Shown piece after piece: positions 13,660 to 33,104 of a DNA stretch of 36,638 nucleotides (positions within the stretch are counted from its first letter, which is position 1; every line of letters begins with the position of its first letter). Under the pieces are notes generated by a model, which had not been told where the DNA came from, ran no database searches, and saw only the letters and a list, made by a program, of their open reading frames with translations. Source of the DNA: an uncultured Verrucomicrobiota bacterium (lineage in GTDB: Bacteria; Verrucomicrobiota; Kiritimatiellia; RFP12; UBA3636); NCBI GenBank assembly GCA_949285835.1, contig CASEAR010000050.1:1-36638 (forward strand), read 5' to 3'. Both the position numbers and the translations under genes were made by a program.

Positions 13660-13882
13660 TTCAATTCCTGCCTTTCTTTCTCCGCAGTCACGGATAGTCA
13701 ATATTCGCGGGATAAACGCCGACGCCCGTCTTGTACGGCGGACTGCAGCCCGCCCCTCCCCTCATTCGGCATCTGCCGCTTCAGGCCCCGCATCTCCTGA
13801 AGCCCCGCCCGACCCCTCTGCGCAACGCCCCGGAAACACCAGTAAAACTGTAGGAGCAACACACAAAAAAGCGCATCAGCAA
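13660..13882. other. GC-rich spacer with an 8-base perfect hairpin
   Basis: GCTTCAGG (13778-13785) and CCTGAAGC (13796-13803) form a perfect stem around a 10-base loop. A T run (minus-strand reading of aaaaaa at 13865-13870) lies just past the nuclease stop but without a matching hairpin. No gene is supported. The sharp GC change from here to the restriction genes marks a likely insertion boundary. Confidence 0.4.
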
Positions 13883-15085: not shown

Positions 15086-16940
15086 TACACTCCTCCAATA
15101 ATTTAACGAAGTTTCTACCGATATTGTAGGCAAGCTCCACAGGTACGGCATTACCAATTTGCGTATACTTCGGCAGTTCTCGATCAAAAATACCCTCACG
15201 TGGATTTCCAGCACGACGAAGCCCACCAGTAGTCCTCTTACCTGCAAATACATACCAGTCAGGGAAGGTCTGCAAGCGAGCCCACTCGCGAACTGTTAAA
15301 GACCTTGGTTGGCAAAAATGAACGTAGTCATCCGGTGCTGAACAAGCCGTAATTGACGGACCATCTTTACCCCAAACACGAGGCAAGACCTTCTGAGCAA
15401 ACTTTTTCGTGCGAAATCTATCAGGTATCACCCCTCCATTACGAATCATCTCCGTGAACTTCTCGACTATTAGGTCTGAATGGTTACTATACTCCATTTC
15501 AGACACTTCATCTCCCGCTGCGAAGATTGTTCCATCTCGCTTAGTGCGAAGTCGCAGCTGAAAACCATTCTGTGGCGAGCACGGGTAAGTTCGTGTCACC
15601 GAACCACGCTGATAATCCGGATCTACCAAATCACCAAGCAACTCCTCTATAGTTGGGTAACCTCCCACAGGCTTCGGAAGGAAACCTGCCATTACCGCAT
15701 CATCACCCTTTACAACCGGCGCAGGGAATATATCACGACGAAGACCAACGATGAGAATACGCGGACGATTTTGAGGGACTCCGTAATCCTTTGCATGAAC
15801 AAGTTTATACCGAACATAATAGGCACCAATGTTACGAAACGTTTTCAATACATCTTTGAAAATCTCACCTTTCTCTCCATCATCTGTCCAGCGCGCAGAA
15901 AGCAACCCTCTAACGTTCTCGAACAAAAAAATCTTAGGTCGAATTCGGTTTACAAGGAATGCCATGTCTTGATAAAGGTAATTAGATGGTAGCTGTTTCT
16001 TTTCGACAGAATAAGATCGCCGAATTCCAAGTCCCGAAAAGCCCTGACAAGGTGGCCCACCACAAATCAAATCAAGTTCGCCATTATATATATCAATATC
16101 AAAATTCCTAAGGATGGTCGCACGAAAACCATCAAGCATGTTTTCGTTAAGAACAAGATCCTTGACGTTAGAGACATTGTTATCACATAGCCAAGGGAAT
16201 TCATCCCTACGATTCAATAGATACGTGCTCATCGCATCAGAATTAAGCTCATTCACAAGCAACGGAGTAAATCCAGCACGCTCAAGTCCGAGAGACAATC
16301 CTCCACAACCAGCGAAAAGATCAAAAAACGTAAATTTTGGGCGCGTGATTTTAGTTTTGGGTGTAGTAGGTTTAAGAAGTTTCGCCGTGAAATCTGTCTG
16401 CACAGCCTCACACACACGCAACACCTTTGGCGAAATCTTCGTCAACAGTGGAGGCAAACAATTCGCAAGTATCGGATCTTTGTAATCTGGCGAAGTAAGA
16501 TATGTTCTGAGCTTCTTTAGCACGAATTTTGACGTTGCGAAATCTTGTAGCCGAACAATAACCTTTTCCGCTAATCCAGAAGCCGGATTGTATAGTCTTG
16601 TTTTGCTCGTTGAGTAGAGGATATAGGTGCCCGTGCCATGCGGCTTGCCTGTTGCTGGATAACCATATTCAGCTTTCAGCTCGTCCCTTGTTTTAAACCC
16701 AATAAATTTTGCCCTAAGACAAACCGGATCCTTTTTCGCATTAAATAGCCAGATTTCGTTGACCTGCTTTGCAACTTCGAGATCAATATCGTCACCATCA
16801 TAAATCGGATAGTTGTAATATTCAGACCATTTCTCCAGCTGCCCCGATTTATACGTGCCGACAAGAACAATCTTCTTGTCATTTGTCGCAAGCCTTCCGG
16901 TCGTGTTTCCATATTCTTTTGGGGTTAACAGCCTTGCCAT
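15078..16940 (-). CDS. DNA (cytosine-5) methyltransferase with extra N-terminal domain
   Basis: The 620-residue protein has all main C5-methyltransferase motifs: FAGCGGLSLGLE (motif I, from residue 209), GGPPCQGFSG with the catalytic Cys298 (IV), FLFENVRGLL (VI, Glu341), QNRPRIL (VIII, from Gln390) and IGNAVPVELA near the end (X). It protects DNA from the coupled nuclease. The first about 200 residues precede the catalytic domain and contain NEIWLFNAKKDPVCLRAKFIG, possibly a PUA/EVE-like fold; I could not name it. The ATG at 16940 is preceded by GGAAGG with 5-base spacing; the earlier TTG at 16952 overlaps that site. The gene is first in a two-gene operon, as expected when protection must come before cutting. 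GC content is much lower than the flanks. Confidence 0.93.
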   Translation of the reverse strand: MARLLTPKEYGNTTGRLATNDKKIVLVGTYKSGQLEKWSEYYNYPIYDGDDIDLEVAKQVNEIWLFNAKKDPVCLRAKFIGFKTRDELKAEYGYPATGKPHGTGTYILYSTSKTRLYNPASGLAEKVIVRLQDFATSKFVLKKLRTYLTSPDYKDPILANCLPPLLTKISPKVLRVCEAVQTDFTAKLLKPTTPKTKITRPKFTFFDLFAGCGGLSLGLERAGFTPLLVNELNSDAMSTYLLNRRDEFPWLCDNNVSNVKDLVLNENMLDGFRATILRNFDIDIYNGELDLICGGPPCQGFSGLGIRRSYSVEKKQLPSNYLYQDMAFLVNRIRPKIFLFENVRGLLSARWTDDGEKGEIFKDVLKTFRNIGAYYVRYKLVHAKDYGVPQNRPRILIVGLRRDIFPAPVVKGDDAVMAGFLPKPVGGYPTIEELLGDLVDPDYQRGSVTRTYPCSPQNGFQLRLRTKRDGTIFAAGDEVSEMEYSNHSDLIVEKFTEMIRNGGVIPDRFRTKKFAQKVLPRVWGKDGPSITACSAPDDYVHFCQPRSLTVREWARLQTFPDWYVFAGKRTTGGLRRAGNPREGIFDRELPKYTQIGNAVPVELAYNIGRNFVKLLEECNA

Positions 16941-17328
16941 TTTACCTTCCAATCTAAATCAATATAAGTTCTCAACTGCATAGCAACCCGATAAAAATCA
17001 TCCCCGTAATTCGATTTTTTTCACCTGATTGTGAAACAAACTAAAACTGAACCACCCAAACATCTCCGCTCATCAACTTGAACAAAAGGTTCTCTTGGAT
17101 TCTTGCTAAACAAAAACCCTGAGTCAGATTGTATCGGATTTTTGTAAACAATGAAACAATTTAGTCGTTAAAATCTTTTAGCAAAGTTGCAGAATGTAAC
17201 GTCCGATTGCAGACATGAAAAGAAACGCCCCGGAGATGCGCATTCCCGCCGTGCGGGCAGATCATTTCCGGAAAACAGTGATGTTTCGCTTTCTGCTAAT
17301 AAAGGCAATCCACGCCGGGAAAAACATC
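16941..17328. other. AT-rich leader of the restriction-modification operon and spacer
   Basis: No gene is supported. On the minus strand, TTCATT and TACAAT (complement at 17128-17133) are 16 bases apart and could be a promoter about 190 bases upstream of the methyltransferase. The palindrome at 17019-17036 lies between this promoter and the gene. I did not find a C-protein (controller) gene. Confidence 0.4.
17019..17036. promoter_or_regulatory. Inverted repeat TTTCAC-n6-GTGAAA, candidate operator of the RM operon
   Basis: The two 6-base arms (17019-17024 and 17031-17036) are perfect and lie about 80 bases upstream of the methyltransferase start. Control of RM genes by their own methyltransferase or by a C protein often uses such sites. 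No controller gene is visible, so autoregulation by the long N-terminal domain of the methyltransferase is one possibility. Confidence 0.45.
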
Positions 17329-18783: not shown

Positions 18784-18792
18784 TGGTATGAT
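18784..18792 (+). promoter_or_regulatory. Extended -10 promoter of the nifU operon
   Basis: TGGTATGAT is an extended -10 element (TGN followed by TATGAT). A TTATCT-like -35 lies 16 bases upstream and TTGATT is a little too far. Transcription would start near 18799, giving a leader of about 43 bases before nifU. No IscR-like site was recognised. Confidence 0.5.
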
Positions 18793-18841
18793 GCTGAGTT
18801 CCATCCGGGCGAATGCGCCGGAAAGAAAGCGAGGTGTCTTC

Positions 18842-19690
18842 ATGTGGGACTACACAGACAAAGTTCTTGATCATTTTCACAATCCCAGAAACGTCGGACG
18901 CATAGAGAATCCGGACGGCGTCGGCCGGGTTGGAGCGCTGGCTTGCGGAGACGCGCTGACGCTCATGTTCAAACTCGACGGCAACGGCCGCATCGCCGAT
19001 GTGAAATTTCAGACCTTCGGCTGCGCTTCCGCCATAGCCTCTTCTTCGGCTCTGACGGAAATGATAAAGGGAATGACTCTTGAGGAAGCGCAGAAAGTCA
19101 CGAATCAGGACATTGCAGATTACCTCGGGGGACTGCCCGAGCAAAAGATGCACTGTTCCGTGATGGGAAGAGAAGCGCTTGAGGCCGCCATCCACAATTA
19201 CAAGACCGGCGAGACGTCGGTGCGTACAGTGGACGACGACCCCGTCGTGTGCACGTGTTTCGATGTGCGGGAGTCTGAGATTGTAAAGGTTGCCACAGAA
19301 AACGGACTTACTACCGTGGAGCAGGTGACCAATTACTGCAAGGCCGGCGGAGCATGCGGAAAATGCCGCAGCGACATACAGGCCATTCTGAACCGTATCG
19401 CGGAAAAGAAGGGCCCGGCCGATGCCCCTGCCCCGCAGAACAGGCCTATGACCCAGCTCAAAAAGATAAAGCTGATAGAAGAAGTCATCGACCGTGACAT
19501 CAGGCCAGCCCTCAAGCGCGACGGAGGAGATCTGGAGCTTGTAGACGTGCGCGGCGACGAAGTGGAAGTGGCGTTCCGCGGAATGTGCGCGGGGTGCGCC
19601 TCGGCGCACATCACGCGCACCAACCTCGTACAGGCCAAGCTGCGCGAATTTGTTTCTCCCGCCATAACAGTAGTGGAAGAAAGGCACTGA
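18842..19690 (+). CDS. nifU: NifU, iron-sulfur cluster scaffold protein (full three-domain form)
   Basis: This 282-residue protein has all three NifU domains: an IscU-like scaffold with Cys35, Cys61 and Cys105; a central BFD-type [2Fe-2S] domain with CTC (Cys137, Cys139) and CGKC (Cys172, Cys175); and a C-terminal NifU domain with CAGC (Cys249, Cys252). It assembles Fe-S clusters with sulfur from the desulfurase encoded 4 bases downstream. Full-length NifU outside nitrogen fixers is common in Epsilonproteobacteria and some anaerobes, where it is the general assembly system. No nitrogenase genes are present, so housekeeping use is likely. The ATG at 18842 has GAGGTG 6 bases upstream; the earlier start at 18788 overlaps the promoter. 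Expected demand from the radical SAM enzymes nearby fits. Confidence 0.95.
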   Translation: MWDYTDKVLDHFHNPRNVGRIENPDGVGRVGALACGDALTLMFKLDGNGRIADVKFQTFGCASAIASSSALTEMIKGMTLEEAQKVTNQDIADYLGGLPEQKMHCSVMGREALEAAIHNYKTGETSVRTVDDDPVVCTCFDVRESEIVKVATENGLTTVEQVTNYCKAGGACGKCRSDIQAILNRIAEKKGPADAPAPQNRPMTQLKKIKLIEEVIDRDIRPALKRDGGDLELVDVRGDEVEVAFRGMCAGCASAHITRTNLVQAKLREFVSPAITVVEERH

Positions 19691-19694
19691 GATC

Positions 19695-20858
19695 ATGCTT
19701 AGGACAATATATCTCGACAACAACGCGACGACTGCGGTGGCCGCGGAAGTGTTCGAAGCCATGACCCCGTTTTTCAAGGATCGTTACGGGAATCCTTCCA
19801 GCATGCACCTTTTCGGAGGGTCTGTACACAGAGACGTGGAAAATGCCCGGGAGAAAGTGGCCGCACTCATCCACGCCGACCCTTCCGAAATCGTTTTCAC
19901 AAGCTGCGGAAGCGAATCGAACAACGCCGCTATTTTCAGCATGGCCGAAACACTCGGGCACGACTGCACCGTGATAACAACGCGCGTCGAACACCCGGCA
20001 GTCCTCCAGCCGTGCCGCTTCCTGCGGGATCATGGGCACTCGCTTGTAGAGATAGGAGTGCATGAGGACGGCACTCTGGACATGGACGAGTACAAACGCG
20101 CACTTGAAATGCCCGGAAAGAAGTTCGTCTCAATGATGTGGGCGAATAATGAAACCGGAGTCATTTTTCCGATAAAGGAAGCTGCGGAACTCGCAGCACG
20201 GGCCGGTGCGCTTTTCCATACGGACGCGGTACAGTCCGTAGGGAAGCTCGAAGAGGTGAACATGTCGGAAGTGCCCGTCTCAATGCTGTCTCTTTCCGGG
20301 CACAAGCTTCACGCGCCGAAAGGGATCGGAGCACTTTACATCAGACGCGGCACGCCGTTCAAACCGTTTCTGAAGGGCGGCCATCAGGAAAACGGACGGA
20401 GAGCCGGCACCGAGAACGTCCCGTACATAGTCGGACTGGGGAAGGCTGCAGAACTTGCCGCCGAAGAAATGAAGAACGACACCGCACGAATTGCTGCGAT
20501 GCGGGACCGCCTCCAGAACGGGCTTCTGAAATGCCCGGACTCGCGCGTTAACGGAAGCCTGACAGAAAGACTGCCGAATACGCTCAACATAAGTTTTGAA
20601 TTCATTGAGGGCGAAGCAGTTCTATATCATCTGAGCGACAACGGGATATGCGCGTCGTCCGGGTCTGCCTGCACCTCGGGTTCTCTCGAACCCTCCCACG
20701 TAATACGCGCCATGGGCGTGCCGTACACCGCCGTGCACGGATCTATAAGGTTCAGCCTGAGCCGCTACAACACTGATGCCGACGTGGACGCCGTGCTTGA
20801 GGCCATGCCGGGCATTGTCGAAAAACTTCGCGCATTATCGCCATTTGTAAACAAGTGA
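19695..20858 (+). CDS. nifS: Cysteine desulfurase NifS
   Basis: This 387-residue PLP enzyme removes sulfur from L-cysteine as an enzyme persulfide and delivers it to NifU. The internal aldimine lysine is in SLSGHKLHAPKG (Lys204), the PLP-binding region includes YLDNNATT at the start and HTDAVQS, and the persulfide cysteine is in SSGSACTSGSLEPSHV (Cys326), the group I NifS/IscS type with a long active-site loop. The gene starts 4 bases after nifU with AAGG upstream, so the two are cotranscribed and probably coupled. It is followed after 12 bases by a flavodiiron gene. Confidence 0.96.
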   Translation: MLRTIYLDNNATTAVAAEVFEAMTPFFKDRYGNPSSMHLFGGSVHRDVENAREKVAALIHADPSEIVFTSCGSESNNAAIFSMAETLGHDCTVITTRVEHPAVLQPCRFLRDHGHSLVEIGVHEDGTLDMDEYKRALEMPGKKFVSMMWANNETGVIFPIKEAAELAARAGALFHTDAVQSVGKLEEVNMSEVPVSMLSLSGHKLHAPKGIGALYIRRGTPFKPFLKGGHQENGRRAGTENVPYIVGLGKAAELAAEEMKNDTARIAAMRDRLQNGLLKCPDSRVNGSLTERLPNTLNISFEFIEGEAVLYHLSDNGICASSGSACTSGSLEPSHVIRAMGVPYTAVHGSIRFSLSRYNTDADVDAVLEAMPGIVEKLRALSPFVNK

Positions 20859-20870
20859 AGGAGTGTGAAA

Positions 20871-22052
20871 ATGAATACACAACTTGCTCAAGGCATCGAT
20901 TGGGTAGGATATGCCGACTGGACCGTGCGTGATTTTCACGGGTACAGGACGGAGAACGGGTCAACGTACAACGCTTATCTCGTGAGGGATGAGAATACCG
21001 CCCTCATAGACACCGTGAAGGGCCCGTATGCGGGGACGCTCCTCGCGCACATATCGGCGCACTGTCCGCTGGAGGAAGTCCGGTACGTCATCTGCAATCA
21101 TGCGGAACCCGATCATTCCAGCGCGCTGCCCGCCGTCATGAAGGCATGCGCCAACGCTGAACTCGTTTGCAACGAAAAGTGCAAAGACGCGCTCTCCCGT
21201 CACTACGATGTTTCGGGATGGAAATTCAAAATCATAACGGAAGGGGAAACGCTCTGCCTTGGACGCAGGTCCCTGAGGTTTTTCAACACTCCGATGGTGC
21301 ACTGGCCCGAATCCATGGTTACATATGTGCCGGAAGACAAAATTCTCTTTTCAATGGACGCTTTCGGCCAGCACATTTCCACGTCAGAGCGGTTCGACGA
21401 CGAACTTCCGCTTGGCGAAATAATTTCCGCAGCAAAAACTTACTACGCCAACATAGTCATGCCGTACGGCAAAACCGTAATGGCGGCCCTGACAAAGCTC
21501 GGCACTCTCCCGCTTGACATAGTGGCCCCGAGCCACGGCCTTATCTGGAGGAAGCACTTTGCCGAAATACTGAAATGCTATCAGGATTGGGCGGTGACGA
21601 AAGCGACAAAAAAGGTTGTCGTCTTCTTTGCTTCCATGTGGGGAAGCACCCGGATAATGGCGGAGGAGATCGCCGAAGGCGCATTGGAAGTTCCCGGCGT
21701 GGACGTCAAGCTTATCGACGTAAACGCCACGCACGACACCGTGACTGTGACCGAAATAATGGACTGCGCCGCCTTTGCCGCCGGTACAGCGACCCTTAAC
21801 ATGGGTATGATGCCGGCCATGGCGCGCACTTTGACGTACATGTGCGGATTGCGGCCGCAGAACAAGTCGTACTTTACGTTCGGCTCGTACGGATGGGCGG
21901 AAAAGGGCGCCACAGCAGCGGATGCCATGCTCGCCCCCGTCTGTGAAAAGCTCCGCGACCCGCTTGCATGCAGATTCCGCCCCGACGCCTCTCTCCTCAA
22001 GGAGTGCCGCGCAGCCGGAAAAATGCTGGCGGAGAAAGCGGCGTCAATCTGA
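20871..22052 (+). CDS. Flavodiiron protein (A-type flavoprotein, oxygen/NO reductase)
   Basis: The 393-residue protein has a metallo-beta-lactamase-like diiron domain with the ligand motif NHAEPDH (residues 76-82; His77, Glu79, Asp81, His82), followed by SMDAFGQH and APSHGLIW. From about residue 245 it has a flavodoxin domain with FFASMWGSTRIMAEEIAEGA. It reduces oxygen to water or nitric oxide to nitrous oxide and protects anaerobes. The protein is the plain two-domain class A form without rubredoxin. The ATG at 20871 has GGAG 7 bases upstream. Its position right behind nifU and nifS suggests a joint role in protecting and repairing Fe-S enzymes. A terminator follows. Confidence 0.95.
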   Translation: MNTQLAQGIDWVGYADWTVRDFHGYRTENGSTYNAYLVRDENTALIDTVKGPYAGTLLAHISAHCPLEEVRYVICNHAEPDHSSALPAVMKACANAELVCNEKCKDALSRHYDVSGWKFKIITEGETLCLGRRSLRFFNTPMVHWPESMVTYVPEDKILFSMDAFGQHISTSERFDDELPLGEIISAAKTYYANIVMPYGKTVMAALTKLGTLPLDIVAPSHGLIWRKHFAEILKCYQDWAVTKATKKVVVFFASMWGSTRIMAEEIAEGALEVPGVDVKLIDVNATHDTVTVTEIMDCAAFAAGTATLNMGMMPAMARTLTYMCGLRPQNKSYFTFGSYGWAEKGATAADAMLAPVCEKLRDPLACRFRPDASLLKECRAAGKMLAEKAASI

Positions 22053-22603: not shown

Positions 22604-23050
22604 TCACATTCCGCTGAAGATTTCGCCGTCCAAATCTATTATACTGTCGAAGCCTATCTCCGAGCCGTCTTCCATAACAATCAGCCGGCGGAAGGCGTCC
22701 ACACGTTCAACGCGCCCTTCCGTTACTTCAAAAGAACCGCCATCTTTCAGTGGATCCGGTACAAAATGCGTTACCCTGATCTCCGGATGTTCGTGCATTC
22801 TGCGCACGAGTTCGCCGGCTTTCAGATTGAGTTCTTCCAGCAGGCCGTCGCAGGGAGCCGGTTCCTCGTCCGTATGCCGGCAGACCTCGCGTATCATATC
22901 GCCGTACCCCGACAATGCCGCAAAAGGCAGGAACTGCACAGCCCGTCTCGAACGCGGCATTTGCGGCCTTACAGGAGACACGTGATGCGGCAGCCCGATA
23001 ATGTCGTCATATGCGCCTGCATTGCGGCGTATTTTATTCCTGTCCGGCAT
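22604..23050 (-). CDS. YolD-like family protein
   Basis: The 148-residue protein contains the YolD pattern PRSRRAVQFLPFAALSGYGDMIRE (split motif at about residues 32-55), followed by an acidic helix and a beta-rich end VTHFVPDPLKDGGSF and EIGFDSIIDLDGEIF. In Firmicutes such proteins are often encoded next to Y-family DNA polymerases and linked to SOS mutagenesis, but their biochemical role is unclear. No polymerase is in the window. The start codon overlaps the biotin ligase stop as TGATG, so translation is coupled, an unexpected partner for this family. The end of the gene is supported by the conserved final strand. Confidence 0.75.
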   Translation of the reverse strand: MPDRNKIRRNAGAYDDIIGLPHHVSPVRPQMPRSRRAVQFLPFAALSGYGDMIREVCRHTDEEPAPCDGLLEELNLKAGELVRRMHEHPEIRVTHFVPDPLKDGGSFEVTEGRVERVDAFRRLIVMEDGSEIGFDSIIDLDGEIFSGM

Positions 23051-24351
23051 CAGGCGCCTTCTTTCGGAACGAGGCTCATATAAAGAATCGGGAACGGCCT
23101 GCCATCCCCATCTGTCTCTGTGCGCCTGCGCACACGGAACCCCATGTGTTCATAAAATCCGACCGCCTGAGGATTCTGTTCATTTACGGTTGTCTCTGTT
23201 ACGGAGAAGTTTTTCAGCGCATACTCCACAAACAGCCGTCCAAGCCCCCTGCCCCGCATCTCCGGGGAAATAAACAGCATTTCCAGAGAGTTGCCGGAAA
23301 GTCCCATAAACCCTGCGGGAGCCCCGTCATCAGTACGAAACGCCGCCACGAGATGCGGCACTTTGCTTATCGCGGAGGGCACCTCTGCACGGATTTCGGA
23401 AATGTCTGTTTCTCCCAGAAACAAATGAGTGGCTCTGACAGAGCGCTCCCACACGTCCGTGAGCATGCCGGCAAGAGAAGCGCTCCTGTCCGACACCTCT
23501 GCAAGGCGCACTTCCGGCGGCGGCGGTTTCCCGGAGGCCGCTATTTCGGAAAACATACGGCGGGCGTAAGTTCTCTCCGGACTGCAGACAACGGAACCGG
23601 AGATTATTTCCTTTATTCCGCCGTTTTGCATTTCAACAAGAAGCATCCCTGTTTCGTCGATACCACGGCAGATTCCGGAGATCGCTCCGCTGTCCTGCGT
23701 CTGTATGCAAATATCCCGTCCGTTGAAAAAGCTGCGCCGGTTCCACTCTTCCGCAACGCGTTTCCTCCCATCCGGCAGCCGCGTTATTTCCGTCCACTTC
23801 ACCATGGACTCCGCCCACAGAGAAATCATGCGGTCAATGTCAAACAGACGTCCCCCCGACTCGACGTAAAGAGACGAAGCCGGGAACAGCGGCCTTTCCG
23901 GCAGAAATTGCGGCGGAGTGTTCACATTGACTCCTGCGCCTGCCACAACGACGCTCCCGCCCCCCGGCGCGCCGATATCCGCCTCACACAATATCCCGCA
24001 AACTTTGTGTCCGCCGGCCAGCACATCGTTCGGCCACTTTATGAAAGCGGGCAGGCCGGACAGCGAGGCTATCGCCTCACAGGACGCCACCCCGGCGGTT
24101 ATCGAAAAAAACGGGGTTTCCGACACAAGGGACGACGGACGCAGGATCATAGACATATAGGCCCCGCACCCCGGCGGCGACACCCAAGCCGCCCCGTTCC
24201 TGCCGCGGCCGGACGTCTGTGATTCCGCCGCGGCCACCGTAAACTCAGCCGCCCCGGAACGCGCAAGCTCAAACGCCTTGTCGTTCGTGGAAGAAACCGT
24301 GCCGTATCGAACGATACGGAAGCTTCCAGGCTGTTGTATACCGTCCGTCAC
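23050..24351 (-). CDS. birA: Biotin--protein ligase fused to a GNAT acetyltransferase
   Basis: Residues 1 to about 255 are a group I biotin protein ligase without DNA-binding domain: VSSTNDKAFELA, the biotinyl-AMP loop GRGRNGAAW (48-56), KWPNDVL (105-111) and KVCGILCEA. It attaches biotin to carboxylase carrier domains. Residues about 280-433 are a GNAT domain with acetyl-CoA loop RGRGLG (366-371), preceded by MLFISPEM, and the motif NPQAVGFYEHMGFRV. Both domains look complete and are joined by a proline-rich linker near residue 275. The only plausible start is GTG at 24351, because a stop lies two codons upstream; no ribosome site is evident. The fusion is unusual. The acetyltransferase resembles small-molecule or peptide N-acetylases such as YjaB. 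No biotin-dependent carboxylase is in the window. Confidence 0.85.
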   Translation of the reverse strand: MTDGIQQPGSFRIVRYGTVSSTNDKAFELARSGAAEFTVAAAESQTSGRGRNGAAWVSPPGCGAYMSMILRPSSLVSETPFFSITAGVASCEAIASLSGLPAFIKWPNDVLAGGHKVCGILCEADIGAPGGGSVVVAGAGVNVNTPPQFLPERPLFPASSLYVESGGRLFDIDRMISLWAESMVKWTEITRLPDGRKRVAEEWNRRSFFNGRDICIQTQDSGAISGICRGIDETGMLLVEMQNGGIKEIISGSVVCSPERTYARRMFSEIAASGKPPPPEVRLAEVSDRSASLAGMLTDVWERSVRATHLFLGETDISEIRAEVPSAISKVPHLVAAFRTDDGAPAGFMGLSGNSLEMLFISPEMRGRGLGRLFVEYALKNFSVTETTVNEQNPQAVGFYEHMGFRVRRRTETDGDGRPFPILYMSLVPKEGA

Positions 24352-24385
24352 AAATCAATACCGCCTCCGGCAGCGACTGCGGCCG

Positions 24386-24415
24386 AAAAAAGGCGGAGAA
24401 CGGCAGACAGCCGCC
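24386..24415 (-). terminator. Terminator of the GH38 gene (minus strand)
   Basis: On the minus strand GGCGG (24415-24411) pairs with CCGCC (24396-24392) and is followed by six T residues (24391-24386). It lies about 36 bases after the alpha-mannosidase stop. The stem is short but the T run is good. Confidence 0.6.
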
Positions 24416-24450
24416 GGTTCCCCGCCCGCGATCCGGCAGAGAACGCTCCC

Positions 24451-27400
24451 TCACCGCATACGAACCTTGAATGTACGAATCTGGAACGGCTTGAACTTGA
24501 TTTCCGCCGGGGAGGCAACTGCTTCGCCCAATTCGTTCCACTCCACAGCGTCGCATTCCGCAAAAGCCGCCGCGCCCGCGTTCGACACAAGTCTTCCGGA
24601 TGCGCACCGCCCTGACGTCTCCGCGAGACGCACCACGAGGCAGTTTTCCCTTTCTGCGCGCTTGAGTACGGACATTTCCACGCCGGATCCTTCAAACGCC
24701 ACCGGCAGCCGCACGGAAGCGTCCGCCTCAAGACCTTCGAGGCGCGTCACCCCCTGATTCAGTTCCGCCGCATTTGCAAGGATCTTTCCGCTCTCAGCCG
24801 CCAAAGAACCTGTGTGCGGCAGGAAACTGTATGTAAACACATTGGCGCCGCGGTCGCATACCGGATCGGGGTGCGTGGGAGACCTCAGGAGAGAGATGGA
24901 CATGACGCCGTCCTTCACCCTGTATCCGTACTTGCAATCTGTCAGGAGCGTCACGCCGAAATCCGGCTCCGACAAGTCCACATAACGATGCCCCACGCAT
25001 TCGAACTGTGCGAACTGCCATTTGGTGTTGTTGTTGGTCGGCCTCGCCACGGTGCCATACTGTATTTCGTAGCGTGCTTCCTGGGCCCGCGGAGTGACGG
25101 GGAATTCCACCCGGCACAGCTTGTGGGACTCCTTCCAGTCCACATTTGTTACAAAATCAAGCCTTTCTCCGTCCTTTTCCAGCCATGCCGTCTGCTGAAT
25201 CACGGTATTTTCGCCGAGGCGCATCATCGCCATTATGCCCGAACGCGCGGGGCCGTCGATGCGCTCCATGGAAATGACGGCCGGCCTGGCTGTCTCCATG
25301 CGCGATGCGAACTCTTCGAAATCCCATGCGTCGTACTCGCGCGGGTGGTCATCGAAAAGCCTTATGGCGTTGCCCGCCTCTCCGGGCTGAATAAATTCAA
25401 TGCCGGAAGCCTTGTCCACGGCGCTCACAAGACGCATGGATGAGTCTATCACGTACCTGACCTTGCCGTTCTCAAGCACGTTTTCGTCCGAACACCCGGA
25501 CACAGCGGCGCCCTCGGCCTCCGTATCGGAAGACCGGAGAGTCACAAATCCGCACGCGGGCACCGACACCGCCGCAAAGTACGATTCCGCCTCACGCTGG
25601 CACGCAGAGACGCACCCATCGCCGCACACCGCGCCCTTCCAGCCCTCCGGAAGCTCAATTACGCCTCTGAACTCGGTGGAAGACGGATTGAACAGCGTCA
25701 TAGCTCCGCTGTTTTCCTTCATTATGGAGCGTGCCGCATTCATCCCTAGTCCGCGGCACTCCTCCACAACAGCCTTCAATTCCGGGACAGCCTCGGAATA
25801 AACGCGATTGATCGAGGACCCCGGAATGATGTCGTGGAAGTGGTTCACAAGGAATCTCTTCCAAAGCTCGTCGAATTTGGCGGCGGGATACTTCTCCAGC
25901 CCTGCGGCCGCACACAGCATTTCCGCGGAACGCAGAGCCTCCTCAGTTCTGCGGTTCCACAGCTTTATCGCAGCCTGCGAAGTGAATGTGCCGCGGTGCA
26001 TTTCAAAATATAACTCTCCGTCCCAGATGTCCAGATCGGCTCTGCACTCTCCTATGCGCTCCAGCGCAGGCTGGGCAAAAGCGAAATGAAAGCGCGGGCA
26101 TCCGTTGAGATTGGTGCACCTGCGGCCGCGCTCGATCATTTCCTCGATCGGTCCGCCGCCGCCGTCGCCGAACCCGAACAGGGAGATCGCGTCCTTCACA
26201 AGCCCGGCCTCCGAGTTGTTTGTCTCGTGCTTGCGGAGCGCAGCCGGGTAAATGCGGCTGTTGTAGTCGTCCTCCGGCGGGAAATGCGCCACGACTTCGC
26301 TGCCGTCGATGCCGCGCCATATGAACGAATTATGCGGAAACCGGTTGTAGCGGTTCCACGAAAGCTTCTGCGTGAGGAAGTAGCTGATGCCGCAAAGCCT
26401 CATGAGCTGAGGCAGGTTACCGGAATAACCGAACACATCCGGAAGCCATACGTTCTTAACCTCCACGCCGAACTCGTCCTTGAAAAAGTTGAGTCCGTGT
26501 ATCATCTGACGGAGGAGCGACTCTCCGTTCGGGATGTTGCAGTCCGCTTCCACCCACATGCCGCCCTGAAGCTCCCAGCGGCCTTCGGCAACCGCCTTCT
26601 TGACCTTCTCGTAAAGTTTCGGGTAGTTCCTGCGGCAGAAATCGTACAGCTGCGGCTGCGACTCTCCGAATTTGAATTCGGGATAACGCTCCATAAGGTA
26701 TAACTGATTGGAAAACGTGCGCCCGACCTTGCGCTTGGTTTCACGCAGCGGCCACAGCCAAGCCGTGTCTATATGCGCATGTCCGATGGCGTTCACATCG
26801 ACCGTGGCAGGGTCTGCACCGAGCTCAAAAATCGGGCGAAGCGCTTCGCGAACAGAGTTCACGCCCCCGCGCCCTGCAGGAAGCATATCAAGCGCTCCGC
26901 TTGCTATCCGGAGTACCTGAACACGCCGTGCGGTACCCGACGGGAGAGCCTCGATCAGATTCATTATGACGTCGAGGTCAAGCCACAGCTGCCACTTGTC
27001 GTAATCAAACCGGCATACACGAAGCTTGCGGACGTCCGCCGTCCAGCTGCCGTTAAGCTTAAGCCCCCCCTCCGAATGCGACGGGTCGGCAGGAATGGAC
27101 GCGCCGAAAAGGCAGTTCGCACCGCCTTCCATCCAGAAGTCCACTTTCTCTCCGCCCTCGCACTCCTTTATCCAGTGCACGCGCGTACGTATGAAGTGCG
27201 TATCAAAAACGGTTCCGCTGGAAATTGCGGTCTTCGGACAGCCGTCCGCATCAAAAATCTGCCCTTCACCGCCGATATCCAGCCAAAGCGTGACGTACGA
27301 GCCCTTCCATGACTCGGGGACTTTGCCGGAAACGCGAAACCATCCGCAATCCCACTCATGCCCCCATACGTCGCCCTCGGACACAGGCCTGTATTCCAAA

Positions 27401-27546
27401 CTCTCACGCTCTGCATAAGGCACCGGCTCCGGAGTAACCGCGCACACGGCCTTCAGCGGATCCCAGTCAAGCACCAATTCCTTCTCAAGTCTGCGATGCA
27501 CCTCTCTTATGCGCTCGTAATGTATATCCTGATAAAAATGGGACAT
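24451..27546 (-). CDS. Alpha-mannosidase, glycoside hydrolase family 38
   Basis: The 1031-residue protein is a full-length GH38 enzyme that hydrolyses alpha-mannosides from N-glycans or mannans. An N-terminal beta domain (about 1-240) precedes the catalytic (beta/alpha) region with GHAHIDTAWLWPLRET (zinc ligands His258 and Asp260) and the nucleophile in VWLPDVFGYSGNLPQ (Asp370). Further family motifs are FKFGESQPQLY, GRWELQGGMWVEAD and GFGDGGGGP, then the helical middle and C-terminal beta domains. No signal peptide is present, so it acts in the cytoplasm on imported oligosaccharides. The ATG at 27546 has AGGAG 8 bases upstream; the ATG-like start at 27564 lacks one. The neighbouring GH3 gene uses an almost identical leader (AGGAG followed by ATACAG), suggesting related control. 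Confidence 0.95.
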   Translation of the reverse strand: MSHFYQDIHYERIREVHRRLEKELVLDWDPLKAVCAVTPEPVPYAERESLEYRPVSEGDVWGHEWDCGWFRVSGKVPESWKGSYVTLWLDIGGEGQIFDADGCPKTAISSGTVFDTHFIRTRVHWIKECEGGEKVDFWMEGGANCLFGASIPADPSHSEGGLKLNGSWTADVRKLRVCRFDYDKWQLWLDLDVIMNLIEALPSGTARRVQVLRIASGALDMLPAGRGGVNSVREALRPIFELGADPATVDVNAIGHAHIDTAWLWPLRETKRKVGRTFSNQLYLMERYPEFKFGESQPQLYDFCRRNYPKLYEKVKKAVAEGRWELQGGMWVEADCNIPNGESLLRQMIHGLNFFKDEFGVEVKNVWLPDVFGYSGNLPQLMRLCGISYFLTQKLSWNRYNRFPHNSFIWRGIDGSEVVAHFPPEDDYNSRIYPAALRKHETNNSEAGLVKDAISLFGFGDGGGGPIEEMIERGRRCTNLNGCPRFHFAFAQPALERIGECRADLDIWDGELYFEMHRGTFTSQAAIKLWNRRTEEALRSAEMLCAAAGLEKYPAAKFDELWKRFLVNHFHDIIPGSSINRVYSEAVPELKAVVEECRGLGMNAARSIMKENSGAMTLFNPSSTEFRGVIELPEGWKGAVCGDGCVSACQREAESYFAAVSVPACGFVTLRSSDTEAEGAAVSGCSDENVLENGKVRYVIDSSMRLVSAVDKASGIEFIQPGEAGNAIRLFDDHPREYDAWDFEEFASRMETARPAVISMERIDGPARSGIMAMMRLGENTVIQQTAWLEKDGERLDFVTNVDWKESHKLCRVEFPVTPRAQEARYEIQYGTVARPTNNNTKWQFAQFECVGHRYVDLSEPDFGVTLLTDCKYGYRVKDGVMSISLLRSPTHPDPVCDRGANVFTYSFLPHTGSLAAESGKILANAAELNQGVTRLEGLEADASVRLPVAFEGSGVEMSVLKRAERENCLVVRLAETSGRCASGRLVSNAGAAAFAECDAVEWNELGEAVASPAEIKFKPFQIRTFKVRMR

Positions 27547-27918
27547 TTCTGTATCTCCTGGCAACTAACCAAACAAAAAAAGGGCCTCCCAACCCCTGAC
27601 AATCGTGATAGTCTCATTCATTTGACGCGATAAGTCAAGAAAACTAAACAGGTAGCGGCATACTTTCCGCAAAAACGCATCCATCCGGTTCAAAAAAGAA
27701 CATACGGCAGGCTTCATGCGCTGAAAATCCGGCGGCAAAGCCCCTTTGATGCGGCCTGGGCACCCGGCTCTCCGTCCGCTGGCCCCCCAGCGCCGCGGCA
27801 TGCGCGCTGAGGCTCTCAAACCGCCGGGACACGGCAGACTGCCCCGCGCACCCCAGCCGCATCTTCCGCACCTCATGCCGGAACCGGGGATTCCGCATCG
27901 CGCACATTTTCAGAACCA
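27547..27918. other. Spacer between GH38 and GH3 genes
   Basis: No gene is supported in about 370 bases. An inverted repeat TTGAC-gcgataa-GTCAA (27622-27638) lies about 80 bases upstream of the alpha-mannosidase start and could be a -35/operator element on the minus strand, although no good -10 follows. The gap is long enough that the two glycosidase genes may be transcribed separately. Confidence 0.4.
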
Positions 27919-29988
27919 TCAGCAAACATCTGCGCGCAACTCTCCCGCGCACACGACGGCTCTGCCCACAGCGTCCGTCACGGAGCCGTCAGGCAGCACC
28001 GCCCGAAAAGCGTCCGGCCACAGCTCCGCCTCCGCCTTCGCCGTTTCTCCCGGAGCTAGCGATACCCGCGCTATGCCCGCCAGCTGGCGTACAGGCGTCC
28101 TCACACCGGCCTCAGGGAGCGACACGAAAAACAGCACGGAATGCTCTCCCGCCATGCCGCCCGCATTTGCCGCCGTAACAGACGCCCTCACCCGGCCGTC
28201 CTCACTGCGCGAAACCCGCAGATCCGAGTATTCAAACCGCGTATAGCTCATACCCGCGCCAAACGGATAAAGCGCCTCGCCCCCGAAAAATCTGTATGTG
28301 CGGTTTTCCATCGAATAATCCGTGAACGGCGGCAAATCCGCCGTCGACCTGTAAAACGTAACGGGAAGCCGCCCGCACGGATTGAACCTGCCGAACAGCA
28401 CGTCCGCAATGGCGCGGCCGCCCAATTCCCCCGGATAAAACACCTGAAGCACGGCATCCGCGTATTCCTCCGGTATCGCCACCGCGCTTCCGGAAATGTT
28501 CACGAGCACAAACGGCTTGCCCGTCTCCGACAGCTTTCTGATCAGCGCGAGCTGCACTTCCGGCAGCTCCACCCCGGACTTATCGCCGGAGGCATCCGCA
28601 TTCGACGCATCGCCGATCTCCCCCTCCATATCGGGATTCAGTCCGAAAAATCCGATCACGACATCCGAATTCTCCGCCGCCGTAAGCGCTTCCGCCGTGC
28701 GGTCGCCGTCATAGTTGGCGCACCCCTCCGTTCTCTTTCTGGAAGGTTCGCACCCGCGCGCATAGAAGACGCGGACATCTTCCCCCGCCGCCTCCAAAAT
28801 TCCGTCGAGCGGCGTAACCGCATGCAGGGGAGTTCCGCTGTAGTTTCCAAGCAGACACCTCATATACGAAGCATTCGGGCCGATCACCGCGATCCTGCTC
28901 AGCTTGTCCATCTTCAGCGGCAATATCGAACCGCGGTTTTTAAGCAGGACTACCGACCTGCGGGCGGCCTCAAGCGAGGCTCTCCTGTGTTCAGGACACG
29001 CTATGCATTCAAACGGGGGCACATCGTCGGGATTGTCGTCGAACATCCCGAGCATGAACTTTATCCGAAGCTGCCTACGCAGAATTCTGTCCAGATCCGC
29101 TTCGGAAATGAGCCCCTTCTCGAATGCCGCACGCTCCTCTCCGTTAAGGGGATCCGAAACCACGTCCACCCCCGCGGCCAGCTCAGCCGCTATTGCGTGA
29201 GCCCCGTCGGCCTGAGTCTTGTGATGGTTCACAAGATTGCGCATCACGCCCACATCCGTGACAACAGCGCCGTCAAATCCCCACTCTCCGCGAAGGATGT
29301 CGGTTACAAGCCTCCTGTTGGTGGACGACGGCTCCCCGTTAACCGCGTTGTAAGCCGTCATCACGGACTTTGCCCCGGCCCCCTTAACGCAGGCCTTGAA
29401 CGCCTGCAGATACGTTTCCCTGAGGTCTCTTTCGCTCACCTCCGCATTGAACCCGGCGCGATCCTTCTCCGGACCGGAATGAACCGCAAAATGCTTAGGC
29501 GTGGCGGCGACTCGCAGCTTTTCAGGATCATTTCCCTGAAGCCCACGGACAAAAGCGCTGCCTAGAAGACCGGACAAATACGGACACTCCCCGTACGTCT
29601 CGTGCCCCCTGCCCCATCTGGGGTCACGGAAGATATTTACGTTCGGCGACCACTGAGTGAGGCCTTTATATGTGTCAAAGTCTCCCTTCGCGCGCGACGA
29701 GAAATACCTTGCGCGTGTCTCGTCCGCGATTATGCGTCCCATGCCCTCCACGAGCTTCGGATCGAACGCGGCCGCCATCGCTATCGCCTGCGGGAAAACG
29801 GTGGCAGTCCCGCTGCGGGCCAATCCGTGAAGAGCCTCATTCCACCAGGAATACGGCGGTATTCCCAGCCTCTCCACGCCCTTGTTTCTATAGTCCACGA
29901 ATCCAAGCTTTTCTTCCGGGGTTAACTCCGAAAGCAGCAGCTCCACCCGTTCCTCCACGGGAAGCGTCTTGTCTCTGAAAGACTTCAT
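27919..29988 (-). CDS. Glycoside hydrolase family 3, beta-xylosidase/beta-glucosidase type
   Basis: The 689-residue protein has the GH3 (alpha/beta)8 domain with YSWWNEALHGLARSG, NIFRDPRWGRGHETYGE, KHFAVHSGPE (Lys165, His166) and the nucleophile in GAVVTDVGVM (Asp245). The second domain follows with ARRSVVLLKNRGSILPL and a C-terminal fibronectin-III-like domain (VSLAPGETAKAEAEL). The FAVHSGPE wording is typical of xylosidase-type GH3 enzymes, so a role on xylo-oligosaccharides is favoured, but specificity cannot be fixed. No signal peptide is seen, pointing to cytoplasmic action. The ATG at 29988 has AGGAG 9 bases upstream. A clear minus-strand promoter lies at 30054-30081. Confidence 0.93.
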   Translation of the reverse strand: MKSFRDKTLPVEERVELLLSELTPEEKLGFVDYRNKGVERLGIPPYSWWNEALHGLARSGTATVFPQAIAMAAAFDPKLVEGMGRIIADETRARYFSSRAKGDFDTYKGLTQWSPNVNIFRDPRWGRGHETYGECPYLSGLLGSAFVRGLQGNDPEKLRVAATPKHFAVHSGPEKDRAGFNAEVSERDLRETYLQAFKACVKGAGAKSVMTAYNAVNGEPSSTNRRLVTDILRGEWGFDGAVVTDVGVMRNLVNHHKTQADGAHAIAAELAAGVDVVSDPLNGEERAAFEKGLISEADLDRILRRQLRIKFMLGMFDDNPDDVPPFECIACPEHRRASLEAARRSVVLLKNRGSILPLKMDKLSRIAVIGPNASYMRCLLGNYSGTPLHAVTPLDGILEAAGEDVRVFYARGCEPSRKRTEGCANYDGDRTAEALTAAENSDVVIGFFGLNPDMEGEIGDASNADASGDKSGVELPEVQLALIRKLSETGKPFVLVNISGSAVAIPEEYADAVLQVFYPGELGGRAIADVLFGRFNPCGRLPVTFYRSTADLPPFTDYSMENRTYRFFGGEALYPFGAGMSYTRFEYSDLRVSRSEDGRVRASVTAANAGGMAGEHSVLFFVSLPEAGVRTPVRQLAGIARVSLAPGETAKAEAELWPDAFRAVLPDGSVTDAVGRAVVCAGELRADVC

Positions 29989-30053
29989 AACTGTATTTCT
30001 CCTGTGCCGCAGACGCCAGCATCGCTGCTCACGCCAGAATCACATTCCTGCGT

Positions 30054-30081
30054 ATTTTAACAGAACCCGTGTCCCAGGCAA
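30054..30081 (-). promoter_or_regulatory. Promoter of the GH3 gene
   Basis: On the minus strand TTGCCT (30081-30076) and TAAAAT (30059-30054) are separated by 16 bases. Transcription would start near 30047, about 60 bases before the start codon. Confidence 0.6.
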
Positions 30082-30095
30082 TACACAAAATCCGC

Positions 30096-30121
30096 GCCAT
30101 GCACGGTTGCCATGCACGGTT
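30096..30121. repeat. Perfect tandem duplication of a 13-base unit
   Basis: GCCATGCACGGTT occurs twice without a gap (30096-30108 and 30109-30121). It lies between the divergent promoters of the GH3 gene and tmRNA. It could be a two-site regulator target for the GH3 promoter or simply replication slippage. Confidence 0.65.
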
Positions 30122-30143
30122 ACGCGCCCCTAAAAGAAATTTG

Positions 30144-30172
30144 GTGACAATTCTCAAGCGGTGTGATAGTAT
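30144..30172 (+). promoter_or_regulatory. Promoter of tmRNA
   Basis: GTGACA (30144-30149) and TAGTAT (30167-30172) are separated by 17 bases. The transcription start would be near 30180, about 13 bases before the mature 5' end, so the precursor leader is short. Confidence 0.65.
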
Positions 30173-30192
30173 GCGCGCGCAATCTCAGTTGA

Positions 30193-30540
30193 GGGGGCGA
30201 CAAGGTTTCGACGGGACGGTTGAGGCTTTAGTTGCGCGCCGAGGATCCCGGTGTCCTCGTGAAAACTCCGGGAAAACATAAACGCGAACGAACAGTTTGC
30301 ACTCGCGGCCTAAGGTTGCCGCGACGCCGAACCGCAGATGCCTGCTAAGCGGGGACGCGTCATCGAGCAGGCTGGCTGAAGGCTGGGTGACCGGGTTTAA
30401 GCGACACTGACGTGGACACTGGCGCGTGCGCCGGCCCGCCTCCGGGCAAACGCACGGGCGAGACTTGATCGGAGGATACGCGCGTAGATGCTGATGTTGC
30501 TTCGTTTCGGACGGGAGTTCGACTCTCCCCGCCTCCACCA
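30193..30540 (+). ncRNA. ssrA: Transfer-messenger RNA (tmRNA)
   Basis: This is a one-piece tmRNA for rescue of stalled ribosomes. The 5' end GGGGGCGACAAGG pairs with the 3' end CGCCTCC plus ACCA to form the acceptor stem (seven pairs, one G-U). The T-arm GGGAGTTCGACTCTCC precedes the encoded CCA at 30538-30540. The resume codon is GCG at 30284 and the tag frame reads ANEQFALAA followed by TAA (30311-30313). The ALAA ending is the usual degradation signal. GC-rich blocks after the tag (about 30318-30470) fit the pseudoknots. The length of 348 bases is normal. Confidence 0.97.
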
Positions 30541-30560
30541 ATTTAAAGTTAAAAAGCAGA

Positions 30561-30599
30561 GAGCCGCATCCTGTTCAGGTGCGGTTCTTCGGGTTTATT
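30561..30599 (+). terminator. Terminator after tmRNA
   Basis: GAGCCGCA, CCTG and CAGG, TGCGGTTC form a long stem with one bulge (30561-30587), followed by a modest T-containing stretch. It starts 20 bases after the mature 3' end. Confidence 0.6.
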
Positions 30600-30851
30600 C
30601 CCCCGGCAAACAGGGATTTCCCTTGAATCCCGCTTTTGTGTGGACTTCCTCTCTCCGCCCGAAAACGCTTTCAGCGCCGCTCTGTTTTCTCGGATTATCT
30701 CTGTCCGCTACGGTTTGCTCCGAAAGCGGGAACAAAATGTTCCCGCCGCCAAAAGCAACAGACAGGAACGCCGGAATGCGGCTCCGATATACGCGGTCCG
30801 ACCTCCCACAGCCGGGAATTTACATCCCGGCATCTCGGATTTCAGGGTGTT
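30600..30851. other. Spacer with two perfect hairpins
   Basis: GCGGGAACA-aaa-TGTTCCCGC (30726-30746) is a perfect 9-base stem, and GCCGGGA-atttaca-TCCCGGC (30811-30831) a perfect 7-base stem. The second lies 20 bases past the stop of the minus-strand PPOX gene and may be its terminator, although no T run follows. No gene is supported here. Confidence 0.5.
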
Positions 30852-31358
30852 TCAGAAACGGATAACGACCGGATCTTCGGAAAAGGAGTAGATTGTCGCA
30901 ACGGCATCCCGGAAATAGAGAACCTGCGTGTTGCCGTCGTCCGGGTCGTACATCTTTTTCAGAGAGGGATAGGCATCAAGCATTGAGACTTTGGCTTCCC
31001 GGCGGTCATCATTGACAAGAGTCCCGGAGACGCGGATCCACCTGTCGCCTTTCATCGCGCAGAGCTCCGTTTTTCCGTTGATTCCGAGCTGCTTAGACAC
31101 ATTCTTCTTCTTGCCGGTCTGGATGTAGAGTTTCCCTTCGAAAATGTGGATGGTTCCGAACGGACGAACCCGCGGCTGATCGCCGTCAACCGTCGCAATG
31201 TAGTAGACTCCGGCGTCTTTCAGAAATTGGTACACGTCATTCATGTCCATACTCCTTTCCGTAACGGTTTTTTCTGACTCAATGGTGGAGAGACACCCGC
31301 AGAGCACAAACGCTATCCCGCAGAATGCGGCTGCAAGCAGTTGTTTTCCGTAATTCAT
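30852..31358 (-). CDS. Pyridoxamine 5'-phosphate oxidase-fold protein, possible lipoprotein form
   Basis: The core MNDVYQFLKDAGVYYIATV, PRVRPFG and KLYIQTGKKKNVSKQL is the split-barrel FMN-binding fold of PPOX-like proteins, found in many anaerobes as small redox or heme-handling proteins. Two starts are plausible. ATG at 31358 with AGAGGA 5 bases upstream adds a hydrophobic leader ending in FVLCGC, which looks like a lipobox, giving 168 residues. ATG at 31244 with AAGGAG 7 bases upstream gives the 130-residue soluble form that matches usual family length. The internal ribosome site is the stronger one. The frame extends further to 31493, but without signals. The gene stands alone and its cofactor preference is unknown. 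Confidence 0.82.
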   Translation of the reverse strand: MNYGKQLLAAAFCGIAFVLCGCLSTIESEKTVTERSMDMNDVYQFLKDAGVYYIATVDGDQPRVRPFGTIHIFEGKLYIQTGKKKNVSKQLGINGKTELCAMKGDRWIRVSGTLVNDDRREAKVSMLDAYPSLKKMYDPDDGNTQVLYFRDAVATIYSFSEDPVVIRF

Positions 31359-31595
31359 TCTGTCCTCTTTCGTTTTGTGTTGGCCGTTGTCCCCGGCAAA
31401 CTTCATGTTTTCTCCTTCGAGCCTGCCGGATTCCGCGGGAGGAACGCTTTCTTTCCTCCGCGTTTCCGGCCTGCCGCAAATAAGAAGAGCCATGCAAGCT
31501 TAAGATATAGATAGCACCATATTGCAGATTGTCAAGACCTCTCTCACTTTCAGCGGAGAAGATGGACGTCATGGGATGTCACGGACAATAACGGC
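31359..31595. other. Spacer upstream of the PPOX and enolase-type genes
   Basis: The stretch holds the minus-strand leader of the PPOX gene. No separate gene is supported, and frame extensions on the minus strand have no ribosome site. Confidence 0.35.
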
Positions 31596-31624
31596 TTGAC
31601 ACCCGGACGCAATAAATATAGGCT
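31596..31624 (+). promoter_or_regulatory. Promoter of the enolase-GH10-RraA-GH10 cluster
   Basis: A perfect TTGACA (31596-31601) is followed by an AT-rich AATAAATATAGG; TATAGG after 15 bases or TAGGCT after 17 are the candidate -10 elements. The transcript leader would be about 80 bases and contains the palindrome at 31662-31675. Confidence 0.55.
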
Positions 31625-31661
31625 TTCCTCATAGGTTCGGCATGGCGGCTCCCGTCATGGC

Positions 31662-31675
31662 GTGTGGTGCCACAC
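31662..31675. promoter_or_regulatory. Palindrome GTGTGG-tg-CCACAC, candidate operator
   Basis: Perfect 6-base arms lie in the leader between promoter and first gene. Just upstream CATGGCG occurs twice (31641 and 31656). A LacI/GntR-type repressor site in the leader is a reasonable guess; no regulator is encoded next to it. Confidence 0.45.
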
Positions 31676-31707
31676 ATTGATTGTATTTACAAGGAGAAAC
31701 TGGCACA

Positions 31708-33030
31708 ATGAAAATAGATCCTGCATCGCTTCGCATAACAGACATGCGGTTTGCCGACATCGACGGCGCGCCCAAGCGCTGCACTCTTATGAAGCTTTAC
31801 ACCAATCAGGGTATTGTCGGATACGGGGAGGTGCGCGACGCGTCGAGCCGCACTTATGCGGCCATGCTCAAAAGCCGGATTCTCGGCGAAAACCCCTGCA
31901 ACGTGGAGAAAATTTTTCGCCGGATAAAACAATTCGGCGGCGATTCCAGACAGGCCGGCGGAGTGTGCGCGATAGAGGTGGCATGCTGGGATATTGCAGG
32001 CAAAGTCTGGGGTGTGCCGGTGTGGCAGCTCTTGGGTGGAAAATTCCGGGACAGGATACGAGTGTACTGCGACACAGATTCTGAAGGCGGCGGCAGGGAT
32101 ATGGGCAAAGCCCTTGCAGAACGCATGAAGAAGGGATACACCTTCCTCAAAATGGATCTGGGGATCGAGCTTCTGATCGACGTCCCCGGCGCATTGAGCG
32201 CGCCTCTCGGCTTTCTTGAAAAAATGCGGGAATACAAAAGAACAGTATTCTCGACACCACATGGGTCGGTGGATCCGTCCGCTATGCGCGGGGAGGCGTA
32301 CGACCTTTTCAACACGGAACATTTTCTAACTGGAATCCACATTACCGAGAAAGGTCTCGACTACCTCGAGAACTACATGGCAGAGTGCCGCGCCGCCGCG
32401 GGATACAGCATCCCCATCGCAATAGACCATCTGGGCCATATCCCGGTGGAGGATTGCATCAAGCTTGCAAAGCGGCTTGAAAAGTTCAATCTGGCCTGGA
32501 TGGAAGATCCGGTTCCATGGCAGAAAACAGCGCAGTATGCGCGTCTGGCAGCAGCTACCACGGTTCCGATAGGCACGGGGGAAGACATTTACCTCAAGGA
32601 AAACTTCAAACCGCTTTTCGAGGCGGGAGCTATCGCGGTGGCGCATCCGGATGTACTTACGGCGGGCGGGATTCTTGAGACGAAGAAAATCGGCGATATG
32701 GCGGAAGACTACGGCGTGCAGATGTCCATCCACATGGCGGAGAGCCCGATCGCCTGCATGGCCGCCGTGCATGCGGCGGCGGCGACCAGAAACTTCATGG
32801 CTCTGGAGGTGCACAGCGTGGACGTGCCGTGGTGGGAGAATATCGCAAAGGGGATACCGTCGCCCCTCATACGAGATGGATACATAGACGTACCGTCCAC
32901 GCCGGGGCTGGGCATTGAGGACCTCGACGAAGAACTGATAAAGGAAAAACTGCACAAAAATTTCCCGGAGCCATGGGCTCCGACATTGGAGTGGGACGGA
33001 GAGTGGGCAAACGACCGCAGATGGTCCTGA
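31708..33030 (+). CDS. Enolase-superfamily enzyme (mandelate racemase/sugar-acid dehydratase type)
   Basis: The 440-residue protein has the enolase capping domain at the N terminus and a barrel with metal ligands Asp240 (IAIDHLG), Glu266 (WMEDPVPW) and Glu292 (GTGEDIY). Candidate catalytic residues include Lys148 in FLKMD, His241 next to the first ligand, and His313 in HPD. The spacing of about 90 residues between Lys148 and Asp240 is much longer than the usual 30 or so, so an insertion lies there. Members dehydrate or isomerise sugar acids; the neighbours (xylanase-like GH10 and RraA-like protein) suggest uronate or aldonate breakdown. The ATG at 31708 has AAGGAG 11 bases upstream; an earlier TTG at 31681 is not needed. 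First gene of the cluster. Confidence 0.88.
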   Translation: MKIDPASLRITDMRFADIDGAPKRCTLMKLYTNQGIVGYGEVRDASSRTYAAMLKSRILGENPCNVEKIFRRIKQFGGDSRQAGGVCAIEVACWDIAGKVWGVPVWQLLGGKFRDRIRVYCDTDSEGGGRDMGKALAERMKKGYTFLKMDLGIELLIDVPGALSAPLGFLEKMREYKRTVFSTPHGSVDPSAMRGEAYDLFNTEHFLTGIHITEKGLDYLENYMAECRAAAGYSIPIAIDHLGHIPVEDCIKLAKRLEKFNLAWMEDPVPWQKTAQYARLAAATTVPIGTGEDIYLKENFKPLFEAGAIAVAHPDVLTAGGILETKKIGDMAEDYGVQMSIHMAESPIACMAAVHAAAATRNFMALEVHSVDVPWWENIAKGIPSPLIRDGYIDVPSTPGLGIEDLDEELIKEKLHKNFPEPWAPTLEWDGEWANDRRWS

Positions 33031-33104
33031 CCGCCCATCTGGCACCAAACTATGCTGTTAAGCGAACACAAAACAAAATATTCCGTTACAGCAGGAGAAT
33101 ACAA

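Follow-up and report, generated by a model that had tools for sequence, protein, structure and literature searches.

A single open frame on the minus strand of the window, the whole 36,638-nucleotide stretch of DNA analyzed, which is the entire contig, joins a complete biotin protein ligase to a complete GNAT acetyltransferase. The frame comprises 433 codons from GTG to TGA with no internal stop, cannot run further 5′ because an in-frame TGA lies directly upstream of the GTG, and begins behind a strong Shine-Dalgarno match (−9.5 kcal/mol). The domain scores rule out chance, and the two-domain architecture is a real property of the assembled sequence, which belongs to a draft genome of 2.67 Mb in 143 contigs (91% complete). 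We consider it likely, with confidence well short of certainty, that the gene is a lineage-private fusion in which a stand-alone ligase reads through into a GNAT, giving two tethered but independent activities. The combination is new as far as searched, while each constituent part is ordinary.

A first-pass annotation, made from the letters alone, had proposed one continuous frame holding both complete domains, a proposal that was borne out by the open reading frame and by Pfam and NCBIfam matches. The motifs it named (GRGRNG, KWPND, RGRGLG, and NPQAVGFYEHMGF) are all present in the 433-residue protein, and its remark that the architecture was unfamiliar agrees with our searches of relatives, which gave no other case among the matches listed.

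Coordinates of the fused gene, its parts, and the flanking features in the window
Feature	Position	Strand	Remarks
Fused gene: biotin protein ligase and GNAT acetyltransferase	23050..24351	minus	Starts with GTG; 433 aa
Biotin protein ligase domain, about residues 11-255	23587..24321	minus	Catalytic core and BPL_C, no N-terminal HTH
Linker, residues 256-280 (CSPERTYARRMFSEIAASGKPPPPE)	23512..23586	minus	No counterpart in relatives
YjaB-like GNAT domain, residues 281-433	23053..23511	minus	Complete GNAT over about 281-430
YolD-like ORF, 148 aa	22604..23050	minus	Start overlaps the stop of the fused gene (TGATG)
Short interval, GH38 gene to fused gene	24352..24450	minus	Holds the Shine-Dalgarno match

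Domain content and catalytic residues

The ligase half matched the NCBIfam model birA_ligase (TIGR00121) over residues 16-255 and model positions 5-233 of 235, with 136.2 bits against a cut-off of 83.1, as well as Pfam BPL_LplA_LipB (PF03099) at residues 20-130 (65.3 bits, cut-off 21) and BPL_C (PF02237) at residues 218-255 (23.4 bits, cut-off 21). GRGRNG is located at 48-53 and KWPND at 105-109, followed by K116, and an alignment of the fusion with 14 relatives' ligases, 15 sequences in all, retained GRGR (48-51), W56, KWPND (105-109), and K116 as invariant. The domain begins at about residue 11, and no HTH family was detected with Pfam up to an E-value of 1. By its predicted domains the half is a complete biotin protein ligase; because the N-terminal DNA-binding domain is absent, it is not a BirA-type repressor.

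The fused gene provided the single PF03099 match in the genome, where no other biotin ligase was found. Two candidate carriers, matched by PF00364, were present, bearing the biotinylation-type lysine motifs EAMKL and EAMKM, both located at the C-terminal end of proteins that are carboxyltransferase-like (the carboxyltransferase reading was made by eye), and BioB scored over its cut-off. Having the sole ligase, two carriers, and BioB in one genome, the ligase half therefore probably has real work to do in the cell.

For the GNAT half, Pfam Acetyltransf_10 matched at residues 340-415 (47.2 bits, cut-off 23.6), as did other GNAT models, and, taken alone, the half aligned with positions 16-145 of the 147 in Escherichia coli YjaB (2kcw; E-value 1e-28), its nearest relative of solved structure. 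RGRGLG lies at 366-371, supplying the acetyl-CoA motif R-x-x-G-x-G, and NPQAVGFYEHMGF lies at 393-405. Across 17 sequences (the fusion and 16 GNATs), 36 columns were invariant, G367, G369, and Y400 among them. Y400 aligns with YjaB Tyr117 (chain position 117 of 2kcw), the change of which to Ala or Phe is reported to abolish or reduce acetylation in E. coli, where YjaB is described as a protein lysine acetyltransferase (PMC6199490). Residue 420, a nearly invariant site, is Phe in the fusion and Tyr in nearly all homologues. The whole protein scored 126 bits with NF007807 (YjaB), under the equivalog cut-off of 134, and the domain is therefore termed YjaB-like and not a proven YjaB.

Because joint alignments misplaced the C-terminal part of the ligase, the whole protein was modeled with AlphaFold twice, first with ligase rows only and then with GNAT rows only; the relative placing of the two domains is consequently not informative. 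With the alignment of ligase relatives, pLDDT was mostly above 85 over residues 12-255, and with that of GNAT relatives it was about 95 over residues 281-420, while confidence was low over 257-280. In Foldseek searches, the top PDB matches of the ligase half were biotin ligases, and the top match of the GNAT half was YjaB (2kcw, TMt 0.89).

The join and its genomic surroundings

The two halves are separated by a linker of 25 codons. In alignments, the initiator Met of free-standing GNATs falls on codon 281, a GTG, so that the GNAT half starts at the point expected of a separate GNAT gene. A frameshift between the domains within the assembled sequence was rejected, as both halves share one frame; the other frames around the join carry stops at codons 246, 249, 270, and 328 and at 239 and 340. 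There was likewise no sign of a chimera of unrelated contigs, G+C by codon position showing no jump at the join. Candidate starts for a separate GNAT at codons 266, 281, and 296 had no Shine-Dalgarno match (0.2, 1.9, and 1.7 kcal/mol, respectively), which is weak evidence because such a match is likewise missing before several further predicted genes of the window.

Downstream, the YolD-like ORF is preceded by a Shine-Dalgarno match of −4.7 kcal/mol and is 40% identical to a protein of locus L041 that itself falls below threshold with Pfam YolD (18.6 bits against a cut-off of 27.5). The gene order at L041 is GNAT, Y-family polymerase, YolD. YolD-like genes were present in 3 of the 161 genomes of the order, the present genome counted, and in the other two the gene lies directly behind a Y-family polymerase. 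In the present genome, a polymerase sharing 58% identity with the L041 enzyme lies on a different contig (C24), and the flanking DNA retrieved for it showed no YolD; the polymerase-YolD pair appears to be split in this genome. The GNAT-polymerase-YolD arrangement was clear in one of 81 GNAT loci (L041), with fragments of polymerase and YolD some 3.7 kb upstream in a second (L099), and was set aside as a general neighborhood, being a hint only. These gene orders weakly suggest that the GNAT may belong to a YolD/Y-family-polymerase neighborhood. The YolD-like ORF at 22604-23050 thus has no adjacent Y-family polymerase; the other loci bearing on this split are L106, L112, L113, and L041:3111-5107.

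On its upstream side, the fused gene neighbors a GH38 gene (24451-27564), part of a region with glycoside hydrolases of families GH38, GH3, and GH10 (24451-34445). Elsewhere in the window, a C-5 cytosine methylase (PF00145) and an MvaI/BcnI-family endonuclease (PF15515) are encoded by overlapping ORFs on the minus strand (13883-16952), an apparent restriction-modification pair, adjoined by an ADP-ribosylglycohydrolase family protein (12856-13701, minus). A NifU-like scaffold, a class-V aminotransferase, and a flavodiiron-type protein (ODP and flavodoxin) stand in a row on the plus strand (18788-22052).

Distribution among relatives

Among 18 other genomes of the family, 14 had the ligase and none had the GNAT. 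Most of the family ligase genes examined end just past the equivalent of residue 255, and a few carry a short unrelated tail. No second fusion was found among the matches listed from 161 genomes of the order, 345 of the class, and 387 drawn from the phylum, these being overlapping sets; one search of each of the latter two listed the stronger matches only. Where listed genomes had both halves, the ligase and GNAT were on different contigs in the cases seen. A pattern scan of named genomes revealed no fusion in the best 80 of at least 555 relatives, all of which were matched by the GNAT half.

The first-pass annotation had suggested looking for the two domains as neighbors in relatives. A tblastn search with the ligase against the DNA fetched for 81 GNAT loci (L024-L104; 80 from named genomes plus L104), with flanks of at most 4 kb and several ending at contig ends, placed a ligase beside the GNAT in none, and a conserved GNAT-ligase neighborhood was rejected. 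No fusion was found in 72,556 plasmid records, 177 of which had a match, none covering 80% of the query. One contig of the viral collection matched, by the GNAT only; a free-standing GNAT relative with 51% identity is located on an IMG/VR viral contig (L110:3001-3435). Phyla other than that of the present genome were covered only by the named-genome scan together with the plasmid and viral collections. No published BPL-GNAT fusion was found in the open-licence PMC literature, as judged by title and the start of the abstract.

The matches listed thus contain the fusion in a single genome, whereas a conserved BPL-GNAT family would occur in more than one. A fusion limited to one assembly had been named in the first-pass annotation as a finding that would refute its reading, and one assembly is indeed where the fusion was seen; because the set searched had no second genome of the genus, a fusion peculiar to this assembly and one characteristic of its species or genus look alike here.

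Likeness to known enzymes, alternative readings, and origin

The ligase half resembles stand-alone group I biotin protein ligases (TIGR00121) in its full-length match and its catalytic motifs, but a C-terminal GNAT is added where most of the family ligases examined stop, after the equivalent of residue 255. The bifunctional BirA ligase/repressor differs by its N-terminal HTH, which the fusion lacks. The GNAT half is akin to E. coli YjaB in the aligned span and in the tyrosine equivalent to Tyr117, yet it scores under the family cut-off and is joined to a ligase. Biotin ligase fusions with other enzymes are already known. In the biotin ligase/type III pantothenate kinase PRK13325 (NF009862), which we take to have the same ligase-first order, a ligase is likewise joined to a second enzyme, but the partner there is a kinase and not a GNAT, and our protein scored 49 bits with this model, whose cut-off is 761, over the ligase part only. 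A Methanocella fusion joins the ligase to PycA (PMC11237513); PycA is part of a biotin-dependent carboxylase, the client of the ligase, unlike the GNAT, a partner with no known biotin link.

The fusion reading is supported by the open frame, the completeness of both domains, and the invariance of their catalytic residues, as well as by the confident models of each half, the lone ligase with its two candidate carriers, the ligase-without-GNAT pattern of the family, and the alignment of codon 281; the Phe at residue 420 tells against it. An error of assembly or consensus, whereby a single miscalled base or false indel within the linker merged adjacent birA and GNAT genes, is an unlikely though not negligible alternative. 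Of the 234 substitutions possible across codons 255-280, 8 yield a stop, so that one such base, or one linker indel, could have created the frame and a false fusion is possible; moreover, the fusion was seen in a single draft assembly, a separate GNAT could start at codon 281, and the linker is shared by no relative. Against an error stand the linker being open in the shared frame and the lack of a Shine-Dalgarno match before codon 266, 281, or 296. Assembly errors are also rare per base, and the target here is about 75 bases. We assign a low probability as well to a real but recent fusion in which the GNAT half is a passenger and the ligase activity alone is important. That this is the sole ligase in the genome, that the matches listed gave no hint of an ancient or repeated fusion, and that none of the 18 family relatives has the GNAT speak for a passenger, but the protein retains the general-acid Tyr and the acetyl-CoA motif glycines, and the GNAT half has neither a stop nor a frame break.

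Coupling of the two activities, with the GNAT acting on the ligase, on the carriers, or on the same lysines and thereby linking acetyl-CoA supply to biotinylation, appears very improbable. Both kinds of enzyme modify protein amines, and in E. coli YjaB is reported to acetylate protein lysines (PMC6199490), though nothing in this is specific to the fused protein. The protein contains no DNA-binding or regulatory domain, no second fusion was found among the matches listed, and a ligase was present in none of the 81 GNAT loci as fetched. Least credible of all, in our view, is a two-headed enzyme whose GNAT half gates biotinylation through acetyl-CoA-dependent acetylation, either of the carrier, at its lysine or elsewhere, or of the ligase itself. 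The linked control of biotinylation and acetylation put forward in the first-pass annotation is not supported, on the same grounds, the ligase having no regulatory DNA-binding domain and the context of the GNAT pointing, weakly, to YolD and the polymerase. Its description of both activities as tied to acetyl-CoA metabolism was loosely worded, since the substrates of biotin ligase are biotin and ATP, not acetyl-CoA.

Returning to a lineage-private fusion of independent activities, we infer a sequence of events that would have begun with an ordinary stand-alone biotin protein ligase, common to relatives. The GNAT and the YolD-like gene are patchily spread, and the gene order suggests, as the simplest reading, that part of a rearranged block, carrying GNAT and YolD, landed next to birA on its downstream side. 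The genes would then have run together, the ligase frame losing the stop codon or boundary that had closed it and continuing via the 25-residue linker into the GNAT. The GNAT probably arrived together with the YolD-like gene behind it, possibly by horizontal transfer, to which its patchy distribution is the one pointer. The N-terminal half would most likely biotinylate the carriers of the cell and the C-terminal half most likely acetylate amines, plausibly protein lysines, the two activities being tethered on one chain with, in all likelihood, no mutual regulation.

The picture of biotin or acetyl-CoA metabolism would be unchanged unless the two activities prove coupled. If real, the gene would be a small example of neighboring genes running together into a two-domain enzyme, and its product a naturally occurring biotin ligase extended at the C terminus by a large domain, of use for learning what the ligase tolerates.
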